IMG/VR virus record: IMGVR_UViG_3300025325_000137
Coordinates: 1 to 23,825 of that record
DNA from: a virus
Length of the DNA: 23,825 nucleotides
Direction: 5' to 3' (one strand)
Part shown: piece after piece, positions 1 through 22,438 of the stretch
Layout: the number at the start of each line of letters is the position of its first letter
Position numbering within the stretch: the stretch's first letter is position 1
Made by a program: the position numbers and the translations under genes
Notes under the pieces: generated by a model
Told to the model about the DNA's origin: nothing
Seen by the model: the letters and a program-made list of their open reading frames with translations, nothing else
The model's database searches: none

Positions 1-311
1 TGGCAGTTAAACGGCGCTGGCTGGCCGGTGAAGAGACCGATGCGGAGTTAAAAGTGGCGCGCAGCGCCGCTCACGACGTTTACGCCGCTTACGCCGCCGC
101 CGACCCCTACTACGACACCGTCGCCGCCGACGCCCTCGCCGCCGCCTATGCCGTCGTCCACGACGCCGCCTACGCCACCGCCTACGAAGCCGCCACCGCC
201 TTCGCCACCACCTATGTCGTCGTCGGCGGCGACGATGCTATTCGTGATCGGCAGAACGCGAAGCTGGAGGCGCTGCTGATGACGCTTGCGCCACAGGAGG
301 CACATCCATGA
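1..311 (+). CDS. Alanine-rich repeat protein, C-terminal part (5' end outside window)
   Basis: This open frame runs in from the left edge (first full codon at base 3) and ends at the TGA at 309-311, so only about 102 C-terminal residues are visible. It begins with a basic segment (KRRWLAGEETDAEL), continues through about 50 residues rich in Ala with Tyr, Asp and Val, and ends with a conserved tail (RDRQNAKLEALLMTLAPQE). The same order of segments occurs in the complete leftward gene at 21671-22438 (KRRWLDGDATDAEL, Ala-rich stretch, RDRQNAQLETLLMTLAPQE), so the two are paralogues and this copy probably has a similar, unseen N-terminal domain. Its stop overlaps the next ATG in an ATGA junction, which suggests translational coupling. 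The function is unknown. Most of the Ala-rich part is built from GCC-type codons. Confidence 0.75.
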   Translation, partial: AVKRRWLAGEETDAELKVARSAAHDVYAAYAAADPYYDTVAADALAAAYAVVHDAAYATAYEAATAFATTYVVVGGDDAIRDRQNAKLEALLMTLAPQEAHP

Positions 312-4711: not shown

Positions 4712-6253
4712 ATGAGTATTCTGGATCGAGCGTTACATCGGCTGGGTTATGCGAAGGCGCGCACGGGCGGAGACCGGTTAGTGACGCGCGATGATCGCTG
4801 GTCAGTGCCGGATTACAGCACGGTGGAGAACCAGGTCACGCTCATGCAGAAGTTGTCATGGGTGTTTATCGCCGTGACACAGGTGGCAGAGGCGGCGGCC
4901 GGCAGCGCGCTGAGTGTCAAATTGCGCATAGGGGAAGGCATCGAGGACGTTGAGAACCATCCATTTGAACTGAAGCTGCAGCGGCCGAACCCGTTCCAAT
5001 CACGGTTTGAATTGTTAGTTGAGACGTTCGCATACCGGCGCTTGTCCGGGAACGCCTACTGGTGGCTGAATAAGCCAGACGAGACTAGCGAACCGACCGA
5101 GATATGGGGTATTTCGCCGGGCAAGATTCTGCCCGTGCCGGACGGGAACATGGGCATTCAACACTATGCATACAACCCGGGCTTCGGCATGACGGAACTA
5201 ATTATCCCTCCGGATGAGATCGTACACTTCAAGGCGTTTCATCCGACGAATCGATACATTGGGCTATCCCCGATTGAGGCGCTGGCCGGGCAGGTTGTGG
5301 GGGACCTCAAGGCGGTGGAGTGGAACGCTAACGTTTTTGCGAAAGACAACGCGAAAATTCCCGGCGCGCTGGTATGGGCGGACATGGTGCAGGACCCGGA
5401 ATGGGAGCGCATCAAGCGCGAATTGATTGACGAGCACGGCGGTGTGCGCCGGTCGCTTATGCTGCTGCGTGGCGCGGGGGCGAAGGGCGTGAGTTGGCTA
5501 CAGATGGGAGTCAGTCAGAAAGACCTCGAATTTCTGGAAGGCCGCCAGTTCACCAAAGAAGAAATATTCGCCGTGTTCGCGCCGGGTCTGGCGTCCCTGT
5601 TGGCAATCAATGCCACCGAAGCAAATGCCGTCGCCGGGCGGGCAACGTTTTTGGATATGTGCATCTGGCCCATGCATCAGCAGATAGCTGAGAAAATCAC
5701 GAATGATCTGTTGCCTTTGTATGGCGATAATCTGATGTGTGAGTTTGATGACGTGCGCAAGACCGACCGAGTGCTGGAACTTCAGGAGCAGGACGCTTAT
5801 GAGCGCACGCATACGCTGGATGAAGTTCGCGCGCGATGGTATGGGGACGAGTCGATTGGCGACGAACGCGGCGCGCTGCTGATGGCGGAAATCACGAAAC
5901 CCGCGCCGTTTGCCCCTTCCCCCCCGGCTATGACTGACACGGCGCCGGACGACCAGGCTATCACACAAGCGGTGAACCGACTGGCGCAGGAGGCCGAGGT
6001 GAGCATGAAGTCTCAGGCGCTGTCCGCGATGGAAGACGAAATGCGGCGCTGGCGCAAGATGGCAAAACATCGATTGGTTGGTAAAAACTTTCACGCCGCA
6101 CTGGACTTCGAGAGCGACATTATTCCGGCGCCGCTGATGAGTTGGATAAAGGGCGGATTGGAACGGGTTGAGACCGGCGCAGAATTGATGCGCGTGTTTG
6201 ATGAGGTAGATCTGCGGGCATGGGGAAAATATTACAATGGCGAATTTAGCTGA
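4712..6253 (+). CDS. Portal protein (HK97 family)
   Basis: This 513-residue protein has the HK97-type portal layout: an N-terminal wing region, LSGNAYWWL (about 110-118), the conserved PPDEIVHFKAFHPTNRYIG segment (about 167-185) and a C-terminal charged, helical region. Portals form the dodecameric ring at one vertex through which TerL pumps DNA and to which the neck attaches. ATG 4712 is chosen because GGAG (4705-4708) precedes it, though at short spacing; an in-frame TTG at 4700 lacks a site. It directly follows terL and overlaps the MuF gene by 17 bases, the classic terminase-portal-MuF order. Confidence 0.92.
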   Translation: MSILDRALHRLGYAKARTGGDRLVTRDDRWSVPDYSTVENQVTLMQKLSWVFIAVTQVAEAAAGSALSVKLRIGEGIEDVENHPFELKLQRPNPFQSRFELLVETFAYRRLSGNAYWWLNKPDETSEPTEIWGISPGKILPVPDGNMGIQHYAYNPGFGMTELIIPPDEIVHFKAFHPTNRYIGLSPIEALAGQVVGDLKAVEWNANVFAKDNAKIPGALVWADMVQDPEWERIKRELIDEHGGVRRSLMLLRGAGAKGVSWLQMGVSQKDLEFLEGRQFTKEEIFAVFAPGLASLLAINATEANAVAGRATFLDMCIWPMHQQIAEKITNDLLPLYGDNLMCEFDDVRKTDRVLELQEQDAYERTHTLDEVRARWYGDESIGDERGALLMAEITKPAPFAPSPPAMTDTAPDDQAITQAVNRLAQEAEVSMKSQALSAMEDEMRRWRKMAKHRLVGKNFHAALDFESDIIPAPLMSWIKGGLERVETGAELMRVFDEVDLRAWGKYYNGEFS

Positions 6254-7733
6254 TCGCGACGATTACGAAAATCAGATTATCCGCCGACTGGCTGCCCTGG
6301 GGCTGCTTGCGGAGATCATGCGCACACTGGGCACAGATATGGACGTGTCTAATCTGACTGCGGCTTTTTGGGGAGACATTGAAGCGCGCATCCGCGGGAT
6401 CGTTACTACCGAATTATTCGCTGTGTTCCGGGCGGCATGGGTGGCCGATGAAGCGGCGCTGGGATACACGTTTCCGGCTGAGTATGCGGACCGCTGGTTA
6501 CAGCGCAATATGGCGCAGTATGGCGCGGACCTTGCGCGGCAAATCACGCTTACGCAGCAGACGGCGGTCGAGCATTACGTCGGGCAGTACTTTGACCAGC
6601 AGTGGAGTCAGGGTCAGTTACGCGGGATGCTGGAACCGTTTTTCGGTGCGGAACGAGCCGCACTAATCGCGCGGACCGAAGTCACGCGTGCGGCGTCCAA
6701 TGCCACCGGCGCAGTGCAGGAACAACTGAAGCGGGAGAATGTGCAAACACGGCAAATATGGCGGACGCGAGAAGACGAATTGGTGTGTCCGATATGCGGC
6801 CGATTGCGAAACAAATTGCAGGGGATAGATTGGGAACTCCCGCCGCCAGCTCATCCGCGTTGTATCTTACCTGGTAATGAAATCGTGGTGCCCGGTCGCA
6901 TTCAGGCTGCAACCACAAGCTATTATGTCGGACGGTGTATTGAGGTAACTTTTGGTAGCGGGAGCACATTGGCCGTCACCGCGCATCACCCGATATTGAC
7001 GCGGCGCGGTTGGGTTTTCGCGGGCGAACTGAAAAGTGCGGATCAACTCATCCGGGCAATTGCCCCCGAAAGGATAGTTGCGGCCATCTATCCAGAGGAT
7101 GACTACGTGCCAACCCGCATTGAGCAGATAGTGAATACGCTGATGAAATCGAGCACGATGACGACCAGACGAATGCCAGTTTCCGCCGAAGACTTCTATG
7201 GTGACGGCTCCGGTTTCATAGGTGAGATCGACATTGTATTTGCCGATAGCTTTTTGCTGGACGAGAGGAAACCCGTGCTCGGTCATAGTTTGGGCGATAA
7301 CACGCTCAACGTGGGCAACATTGTGCCAGGCAGTCTCCAGTGTTTTGGCTCGCAGCAGGAGCGATTCGGGTTTCACAGGAATGCCTCGAGTAGCCTCGTG
7401 AGCAGCCATCACTTGTGCGCACCGTTGCTCTTCGGACATGTTAGCCCACTTCATCAATTCAGCGTCGGATTGATTACGCGGGATAATGCCACACGCCAAA
7501 AGCCGGCGTCGGAAAGTCCAGCGATTGATCCCCGCCTCGCGGGCGAGTTTGTTCTCCGATTCGCCCGCGAGATAGCGATGGAGCAAATTATCCAGATCAG
7601 AGATTTCGATTTTTCGGGGCACGTGTATGACCTCCAGGTTAGTCCATACGAACTATACATCTGCAATTCTATTATAACACATAACTGTCGGTGTTGGCCT
7701 GACCTTATCATCATTGAAACGGAGGCTGTGTGA
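6237..7733 (+). CDS. MuF-type minor head protein precursor, interrupted by an intein
   Basis: The 498-residue precursor contains a 223-residue MuF-type minor head protein (extein residues 1-208 and 484-498). The extein shows the MuF signature IARTEVTRAASNA (about 144-156), CPICG (184-188) and the C-terminal HPR|CRCW motif. The last of these is interrupted after Arg208 by 275 intein residues. MuF proteins bind near the portal inside the procapsid and help head assembly. After splicing, AHPR joins CRCWPDLIIIETEAV, restoring the family's usual HPxCRC sequence, which is the main evidence for the exact junctions. ATG 6237 overlaps the portal gene and has only a weak purine-rich site. The gene ends in a TGATG overlap with the next gene. 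Confidence 0.9.
   Translation: MANLADRDDYENQIIRRLAALGLLAEIMRTLGTDMDVSNLTAAFWGDIEARIRGIVTTELFAVFRAAWVADEAALGYTFPAEYADRWLQRNMAQYGADLARQITLTQQTAVEHYVGQYFDQQWSQGQLRGMLEPFFGAERAALIARTEVTRAASNATGAVQEQLKRENVQTRQIWRTREDELVCPICGRLRNKLQGIDWELPPPAHPRCILPGNEIVVPGRIQAATTSYYVGRCIEVTFGSGSTLAVTAHHPILTRRGWVFAGELKSADQLIRAIAPERIVAAIYPEDDYVPTRIEQIVNTLMKSSTMTTRRMPVSAEDFYGDGSGFIGEIDIVFADSFLLDERKPVLGHSLGDNTLNVGNIVPGSLQCFGSQQERFGFHRNASSSLVSSHHLCAPLLFGHVSPLHQFSVGLITRDNATRQKPASESPAIDPRLAGEFVLRFAREIAMEQIIQIRDFDFSGHVYDLQVSPYELYICNSIITHNCRCWPDLIIIETEAV
6867..7622 (-). CDS. Antisense homing endonuclease (Vsr/EDxHD type) nested in the intein
   Basis: This 251-codon gene lies wholly inside the intein on the opposite strand, in exactly opposed codon register. 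Residues about 10-50 (YLAGESENKLAREAGINRW) form a helix-turn-helix, followed by a segment seen in free-standing phage endonucleases (MSEEQRCAQVMAAHEATRG). Residues 104-200 form a Vsr-like fold: Glu106, NVDL with Asp132, Glu143, FGGNWH (145-150), His155, then GWHVVILW (170-177). These match the catalytic pattern of the EDxHD family typified by I-Bth0305I. The GTG start has GGAGGT (7635-7630) at 7-base spacing and an extended -10 box further upstream. The product would cut intein-less MuF alleles. Residues about 200-251 lie opposite the essential intein blocks A and B and may be only tolerated sequence. It is not the strand shadow of a gene, because specific family motifs are present. Confidence 0.85.
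   Translation of the reverse strand: MPRKIEISDLDNLLHRYLAGESENKLAREAGINRWTFRRRLLACGIIPRNQSDAELMKWANMSEEQRCAQVMAAHEATRGIPVKPESLLLRAKTLETAWHNVAHVERVIAQTMTEHGFPLVQQKAIGKYNVDLTYETGAVTIEVFGGNWHSSGRHRARFHQRIHYLLNAGWHVVILWIDGRNYPFGGNCPDELIRTFQFARENPTAPRQYRVMRGDGQCAPATKSYLNTPSDIIACGCSLNATGHHDFITR
7630..7679 (-). promoter_or_regulatory. Promoter and ribosome site of the antisense endonuclease
   Basis: On the minus strand, TGTTATAAT (7679-7671) is a perfect extended -10 element (TGnTATAAT). There is no good -35 box, which extended -10 promoters can lack. Transcription would start near 7664. GGAGGT follows at 7635-7630, 7 bases before the GTG at 7622. On the plus strand the same bases encode the Ile-Ile-Thr of the intein's C-terminal SIITHN block, so the regulatory signals share DNA with essential splicing codons. 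Confidence 0.6.
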
Positions 7734-21542: not shown

Positions 21543-21674
21543 CTATTTTAAGCACAAATACCACGGATAATGAGCTAAACAGTCTGGCAGCACGAACACT
21601 ACATAGAGCACGGTAACCAAGATCGCCACCAGTAGCAACAGCACAAGCAGTAGATGCCGTCTCGCTGAGTTCAC
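21543..21674 (-). CDS. Very small single-pass membrane protein, 43 aa
   Basis: This 43-codon gene starts at GTG 21674 and overlaps the preceding stop (GTGA). Minus-strand CAGGAG, 9 bases before the GTG, supplies a ribosome site. The product has a basic N-terminus (MNSARRH), one strong hydrophobic helix (about 8-29, LLLVLLLLVAILVTVLYVVF) and a short C-tail with two cysteines. The N-in/C-out topology resembles small membrane effectors or holin-like peptides, but nothing proves function. The stop TAG forms the first bases of the next gene's AGGAGG site. Confidence 0.6.
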   Translation of the reverse strand: MNSARRHLLLVLLLLVAILVTVLYVVFVLPDCLAHYPWYLCLK

Positions 21675-22438
21675 GATTTATGCTCCTGCGGCGCTAACGT
21701 CATCAGCAGTGTCTCCAGTTGCGCGTTCTGCCGATCCCGCGTGGCAGAGTAGACGCCGTTGGCGGCGAAGGTGGCGGCGTGGGCGGCGGCGAAGGTGGCG
21801 ACGGCGGCGGCGGCGAGGGCGTCGGCGGCGGCGGTGGCGAGGGCGTCGGCGGCGGCGTGGTCGGCGGCGAAGTCGGCGGCGGCGAAGTCGGCGACTACTG
21901 TTGCGGTGTCGGTGGCGTAGTCGGCGGCGGTGTCGTAGTCGGCGGCGGTGGCGGCGGCAGTGACGGCGGCGTCGTAAGCGTTGACGCACGCCGCTTCCAA
22001 TTCCGCATCGGTCGCATCCCCGTCCAACCAGCGTCGCTTGGTCGCCAAGACCGCCACACTGCGCGGGTCCGGGTTGTCGACCAGCGCCAGCGCTTCCTCC
22101 GCGCACCACAGCATAAACTCATGCAGCACGCGGGTCGCGTCCGCCACCCACAGGCACAACCGTTCGCTGGCAACGTGTTTATTGCCGCCATGCGCGATGA
22201 TGGTTCCCCGCAGGAGCGCTCGCTCCACCCCCGCGCCGGGCGCAAACTGAAGCGCATCCAGTGCGCGCTCGCTGCCATGCAGTCCATGCACGCAGGGAAT
22301 AATCTCGCCCTCCACCCGCAGTGCCTGACCGGGGACAACCGGTAAGTTTTCTTCCCCGGTTGTGAACTCGCCGTTTACGACGCGCACAAAGTGCCAGACC
22401 AAAAACCCATCGCTTGCCTCAATCTTGTTTATTGTCAT
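21671..22438 (-). CDS. Alanine-rich repeat protein with conserved N-terminal domain (DUF7666-like), 255 aa
   Basis: The ATG at 22438 has AGGAG upstream on the minus strand. Residues about 1-125 are a compact domain (IIPCVHGLHGSERALDALQF, RLCLWVADATRVLHEFMLWC) that I recognise as the one fronting many phage proteins with Ala repeats, often labelled DUF7666. Residues about 145-235 are an Ala-rich low-complexity stretch in which Asp, Phe, Tyr and His recur every four or five positions, probably helical, made of GCC/GAC/TTC codons. The tail (RDRQNAQLETLLMTLAPQE) matches the paralogue at 1-311. Function is unknown. Its start overlaps the ribbon-helix-helix gene by 20 bases. Confidence 0.75.
   Translation of the reverse strand: MTINKIEASDGFLVWHFVRVVNGEFTTGEENLPVVPGQALRVEGEIIPCVHGLHGSERALDALQFAPGAGVERALLRGTIIAHGGNKHVASERLCLWVADATRVLHEFMLWCAEEALALVDNPDPRSVAVLATKRRWLDGDATDAELEAACVNAYDAAVTAAATAADYDTAADYATDTATVVADFAAADFAADHAAADALATAAADALAAAAVATFAAAHAATFAANGVYSATRDRQNAQLETLLMTLAPQEHKS

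Follow-up and report, generated by a model that had tools for sequence, protein, structure and literature searches.

A predicted homing-type endonuclease gene lies antisense, codon for codon, within the intein of a phage MuF gene

The window, i.e., the whole stretch of DNA analysed here (23,825 nucleotides, positions 1 to 23,825 of IMG/VR virus record IMGVR_UViG_3300025325_000137), carries a gene whose product matches Phage_Mu_F (E 7.9e-6) and the head protein family phrog_15127 (E 4.6e-22), and which contains an intein. Near opposite ends of the window lie two related alanine-rich repeat ORFs (3-311, plus strand, and 21671-22438, minus strand; KRRWLxGxxTDAEL...). The plus-strand features of the MuF locus are:

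6237..7733, plus strand: MuF-like phage minor head (head morphogenesis) gene, a single ORF of 498 aa that contains the intein
6861..7685, plus strand: intein of 275 codons at the HPR/CRC junction (Intein_splicing, Foldseek)
6861..7070, plus strand: N-terminal splicing region with blocks A and B, Cys1, and TAHH at 6978-6989 (sequence, AlphaFold2)
7578..7688, plus strand: C-terminal splicing region with blocks F and G and His-Asn, including Cys+1 at 7686-7688 (TIGR01443 intein_Cterm)
7251..7520, plus strand: sense read-through linker, intein residues 131-220 (disorder predicted, AlphaFold2 pLDDT 44-54)

On the sense strand the Pfam Intein_splicing model is matched above its cut-off (E 1.4e-10), and the predicted model of the intein was paired by Foldseek with the Mtu RecA mini-intein (prob 1.00, E 6.8e-5). 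The initial annotation, made from the letters alone, had placed an intein at 6861-7685 with a full set of splicing residues, and this holds: Cys1, T40-A-H-H43, H274-N275 and Cys+1 are all present. AlphaFold2 predicts both Hint termini confidently (pLDDT 91-98 for intein residues 1-70 and 92-98 for residues 241-275). By its splicing residues and predicted Hint fold, the segment qualifies in sequence and predicted structure as an intein, splicing itself being inferred. It could be argued that only the antisense nuclease described below is a real resident of the locus, while the sense intein no longer splices and MuF functions with the insert retained; the linker is long and disordered, and there are no splicing data. 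However, Cys1, the block B histidine (H43) and the terminal asparagine (N275) are invariant across 95 homologous inteins, both splicing regions are found in 103 of the 103 nested representatives of the family (defined below), and the insertion point splits a conserved MuF motif, so that we give this reading very little credence.

A nuclease match in the intein's own sense frame was found neither with Pfam nor in a further profile search, in agreement with the initial annotation, which had located the nuclease on the opposite strand of the same DNA. The minus-strand features are:

6867..7622, minus strand: gene for a homing-type endonuclease of 251 aa, antisense to the intein, from a GTG at 7620-7622 to a stop at intein codon 3 (ORF, Pfam, profiles, AlphaFold2)
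7488..7595, minus strand: helix-turn-helix (HTH) DNA-binding domain, antisense residues 10-45 (relatives match HTH_7 and further HTH families)
7017..7313, minus strand: Vsr/DUF559/I-Bth0305I-like catalytic domain, antisense residues 104-202, with E106, D132, E143, H150 and R162
7631..7635, minus strand: GGAGG, the Shine-Dalgarno sequence for that gene, eight bases upstream of the GTG and opposite block F (VYDLQ)

This ORF, whose extent had been given correctly, lies entirely within the intein, with its start in the complement of block F. The two frames are codon-aligned and run back to back: reverse-complementing a sense codon gives an antisense codon, with the middle base shared.

The HTH and Vsr-like core that had been read from the antisense translation were borne out by family models, profiles and predicted fold. 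The antisense protein matches PF18741 (REase_MTES_1575) with E 4.8e-7, under the family's curated cut-off, and DUF559 weakly; the former was matched by 33 of 38 family members, and many members match HTH families. When solved structures were searched with the family profile, 3hrl (5.9e-6), I-Bth0305I (3.4e-5) and Vsr (0.0032) were recovered. Only the profile gave such matches: a single-sequence phmmer search of the PDB with the antisense protein returned nothing useful. In PHROGs the window's antisense protein had no match at 0.001. Structures of the products of both strands were predicted with rows from annotated GenBank loci left out. The antisense model has a mean pLDDT of 90.3, shows three helices in the HTH region and is of low confidence only in the tail (221-251), which lies opposite intein blocks A and B. 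Opposite the disordered linker, the N-terminal half of the nuclease protein is encoded, and it is predicted to be ordered (pLDDT 95-98). Foldseek ranked the I-Bth0305I catalytic domain first and Vsr second (prob ~1.00, with modest E values of 0.004-0.006). D132, E143 and R162 are invariant in the 103 nested representatives, H150 is present in 98 of them, and at least 90% have E106; for the last Asp of EDxHD, no conserved counterpart was recognised in the family. We assign a Vsr-like catalytic fold to the antisense protein on the strength of profiles and structure prediction, its catalysis being inferred.

Signals for separate translation of the antisense gene are written into block F. Across the family the antisense start lies opposite the His of GHVYNL, and this His is encoded by CAT (antisense ATG) in 55 of 66 cases, against a background of 26.9/64 (p 6e-12). 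The nearby Leu is CTC, which gives GAGG/GGAG, the Shine-Dalgarno sequence, in 68 of 91 cases compared with 22.9 expected (p 5e-23). At the terminal His of the intein, where there is no antisense gene opposite, codon choice is unskewed (CAT in 34/80). A Shine-Dalgarno-like sequence is present in 68/103 representatives. A minus-strand promoter scan yielded no convincing candidate (2 found, 1.4 expected by chance).

The arrangement is not confined to the window. By tblastn, the antisense protein was found in 121 phage records (in 108 over at least 80% of its length); wherever such a record was examined, the other strand carried a gene annotated as head morphogenesis or MuF. In IMG/VR, a single protein query detected 49 loci and a subset alignment 328 stretches; the 38-sequence alignment was too diverse for the locus search and a 15-sequence subset was used instead. 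GTDB added 20 loci from many phyla. Among the host genes of the family, 28 of 40 tested match Phage_Mu_F in Pfam. A stop-free codon-aligned sense frame was found in 161 of 164 related loci; the mean number of stops is 7.7 and 12.5 in the two remaining sense frames. Many stop codons in the antisense frame of homologous inteins would have counted against the initial annotation, but an open antisense match is present in all 164. Among the matches listed in a separate motif scan, 10 of 112 nested cases have a match interrupted by an antisense stop, and in the inspected cases these stops fall in the C-terminal tail. After removal of sequences of at least 85% nucleotide identity, 103 nested non-redundant representatives remained. 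Cultured phages with the arrangement infect Salmonella, E. coli, Gordonia, Mycobacterium, Pseudomonas and Klebsiella. It thus appears to be common, present in about a hundred diverse phage lineages, and not a single oddity.

Nowhere in the records examined is the antisense gene annotated as a nuclease. A piece of it is annotated as a hypothetical protein in Salmonella phage vB_StyS-sam (L064:2324-2725, minus strand); no other examined record annotates any of it. Several Guernseyvirinae MuF genes (e.g., L293:1501-3360, plus strand) are annotated as NAD+--asparagine ADP-ribosyltransferase, probably an annotation carry-over. Gordonia phage Sedona, Klebsiella phage RCIP0113, Mycobacterium phage Sejanus and E. 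coli phage fEg-Eco06 were considered as carriers of inteins without the antisense gene and rejected, since a diverged antisense nuclease is present in each.

Two loci carry the nuclease without an intein opposite. At L039 (5001-5675, plus strand, on the same contig as L163) a free-standing gene of the nuclease family lies between minus-strand phage structural genes. At L104 (3851-4696, plus strand) an intact ORF of the family stands beside a MuF fragment; on the other strand there are 5 stops, and splicing regions are not recognisable. The locus looks like a decayed intein whose endonuclease survived. The occurrence of the nuclease without an intein argues that it is an independent gene that was captured antisense.

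In this register antisense residues mirror sense residues, and one might propose that the intein alone is coding and that its conserved, codon-aligned sense frame produces the antisense ORF, conservation included, as a by-product. We resampled the sense codons synonymously 1000 times. A 251-codon antisense opening arose in 13 of the 1000 sense-preserving resamplings, so that openness in the window sequence alone is weak evidence. However, the resampled antisense products scored at most 129 bits, compared with 256 observed, by a model built without the window's family. With the antisense protein held fixed instead, the sense frame stayed stop-free in only 3.8% of resamplings. Over the nuclease part, about 257 sense stops are expected from each host's usage of the antisense codons TTA, CTA and TCA, and 0 were seen; this count covers nested loci only, with the non-nested representatives L039 and L104 kept apart, and the observed 0 is partly conditional. 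As far as sequence comparison can decide, the evidence against chance across the 103 non-redundant lineages is overwhelming.

The pattern of variation points the same way. Over antisense residues 21-185 it is the antisense third position that is most variable (122 vs 40 columns, p 4e-13), and over residues 196-245, opposite blocks A and B, the pattern is reversed (34 vs 11, p 1e-4). We computed pN/pS for these two regions, nuclease and A/B, in 11 ungapped Guernseyvirinae inteins: in the nuclease region it is 0.23 for the antisense and 0.98 for the sense frame, and in the A/B region 0.68 and 0.48, respectively. It follows from both measures that the sense frame over most of the nuclease is kept stop-free and is otherwise nearly free to vary. 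The by-product explanation is also contradicted by the predicted structures, confidently nuclease-like on the antisense strand and disordered on the sense strand over much of that stretch, and by L039 and L104, where the antisense gene persists without an intein opposite. Resampling, codon-position and pN/pS tests thus rule it out computationally as an artefact, and we give it practically no credence. On these estimates the two frames are an overlapping gene pair, both open beyond chance and both under selection.

One short stretch is constrained from both sides:

7188..7208, both strands: patch in which sense E110-D-F-Y-G-D-G116 lies opposite antisense A139-V-T-I-E-V-F145

The family consensus of this patch is EDFHGDG on the sense and PVAVEVF on the antisense strand. 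At antisense residues 139-142 (PVAV) the third bases are 96-99% fixed, compared with 29-57% at nearly all other conserved four-fold nuclease sites; position 144, inside the patch, is at 71%. Because these third bases are fixed, the sense peptide EDFHGDG must be frozen, and because the sense third positions of EDFHGDG do vary, the constraint acts on the sense protein and not on the DNA. L201 (motif at 5807-5826) and L286 carry a MuF mini-intein of about 160 codons in which EDFHGDG is kept and the antisense nuclease is absent, the antisense frame of L201 having many stops. Since the motif is kept there without the nuclease, it seems that EDFHGDG has its own, as yet unidentified, role on the sense strand. 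With this patch also conserved, the sense strand is, by comparison of homologues, more than a passive read-through.

Intein-less MuF alleles, which the initial annotation had suggested looking for, were found in jersey-like phages: 58 of 406 records contain most of the query including the intein, and most of the others have the exteins only. In 5sent1 the empty allele is exact, PAHPN/CRSS compared with PAHPN-(C...HN)-CRST where the intein is present. The inteins of jersey_S1 and demigod are identical at 816 of 816 positions, compared with 90-92% in the exteins; between the E. coli phage Snoke and the Salmonella phage jersey_S1, identity is 95.7% for the intein and only 69% and 82% for the exteins. 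Because near-identical inteins sit in more diverged exteins, we infer that the element passes as a unit from one lineage to another. Such transfer, together with alleles that are empty at the same codon, fulfils, by genome comparison, the criterion for a mobile intein, in jersey-like phages and not in the window's virus; the criterion of an in-frame endonuclease is not met, the nuclease being antisense. A search for close relatives of the window's virus that lack the intein recovered that virus alone. A co-conversion tract at the insertion site is not claimed: the proximal flanks diverge, but those of intein-free pairs do likewise, and the signal is not clearly separable from general mosaicism. 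For jersey-like phages, the intein-containing capsid gene has been reported as a mobile element, in passages that do not mention an antisense gene (PMC8425127).

In several Guernseyvirinae (L058, L060, L062, L065) the motif FGGNWH of most members reads FGGGWA, with Ala in place of H150. The antisense pN/pS given above for Guernseyvirinae remains low despite Ala at this putative catalytic position. Some antisense copies may therefore be inactive nucleases. The absence of His150 from some members, the HTH domain, the occurrence of Vsr-type folds in repair and defence proteins as well, and the lack of assay data leave room for a real antisense protein that does not home, i.e., a regulator, a repair enzyme or a defence nuclease sheltering in the intein. 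We consider this unlikely, though worth keeping in mind, as the gene is nearly always inside an intein (161/164 loci), homing is the known activity of its relative I-Bth0305I, and the intein that houses it shows the behaviour of a mobile unit. The word homing in the initial annotation is thus supported by presence or absence at a single codon and by the passage of complete inteins from one phage lineage to another; cleavage has not been shown.

Taken together, the element is very probably a mobile intein with a homing endonuclease that is encoded separately, on the other strand of the intein's own DNA. The computation itself demonstrates two open codon-aligned frames, selection on both, a nuclease fold, a constraint that switches strands, presence or absence at one site and horizontal transfer as a unit; antisense expression, cleavage and target specificity remain inferences, as does splicing. 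In the proposed mechanism, translation of the MuF head protein from the plus strand would continue across the entire region, and the Hint domain (about residues 1-130 and 240-275) would splice itself out, the antisense-derived stretch being a tolerated linker. The minus strand would be translated from the start codon and ribosome-binding site in block F into a free HTH-nuclease. In a mixed infection, this nuclease would most likely cut intein-free MuF alleles at the HPN/CRC codons, and repair of the break would copy the intein, and the antisense gene with it, into the cut allele.

More broadly, there is a good chance that we are dealing with a widespread class of selfish elements, with an intein on one strand and a homing endonuclease on the other, locked codon to codon, where in the patch the catalytic strand of the nuclease and a conserved intein element occupy the same base pairs. 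If so, neither partner could be freely lost or changed without the other, which would explain persistence across many phage groups. Homing inteins are known from textbooks as in-frame fusions, and a nested antisense endonuclease would be a second, independent architecture; it would also show very clearly that complementary, codon-aligned strands can each encode a folded protein under selection. The origin of antisense overlapping genes and how tightly two active proteins can share codons become open to testing, as does a possible slowing of the decay that homing endonucleases usually undergo, once the endonuclease is locked into the intein. Jerseyvirus laboratory phages with and without the element already exist.

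We found no earlier description of an endonuclease antisense within an intein in the open-licence literature searched, which excludes most subscription papers, including key ones on EDxHD enzymes, thus a prior description is possible. In fractured genes, free-standing EDxHD (Vsr-type) endonuclease genes lie between the halves of phage split inteins; there the gene sits between split halves and not antisense inside an unsplit intein. Endonucleases of classical mobile inteins are translated in frame as part of the intein (PMC3943268). PI-SceI and PI-PfuI share with the MuF intein a Hint domain at a conserved host motif, an endonuclease and a sporadic distribution, but the MuF intein has its endonuclease in a gene of its own, read from the complementary strand of the same codons. 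I-Bth0305I, of the EDxHD/Vsr fold, likewise has a Vsr-like core, a helical DNA-binding domain and a phage home; it is, however, intron-encoded, whereas the MuF family is intein-nested and antisense and has an N-terminal resolvase-like HTH. For group I introns, homing endonuclease genes encoded on the other strand are known, e.g., the His-Cys box genes of Porphyra S1506 introns (PMC2585584). There, too, the gene is antisense to a splicing host element, but the opposite strand is a non-coding ribozyme extension, while in the MuF intein both strands are protein-coding over the same codons. Ambigrammatic narnaviruses carry an ORF on each strand, codon-aligned and cleared of every reverse stop, and the codon-aligned register is the one in which synonymous changes can remove all such stops (PMC6884476); because of this property, the register may explain both the origin and the persistence of the arrangement described here, which is our inference. 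The narnaviruses are RNA viruses whose reverse ORF has no described function, whereas in the MuF intein both products can be assigned.
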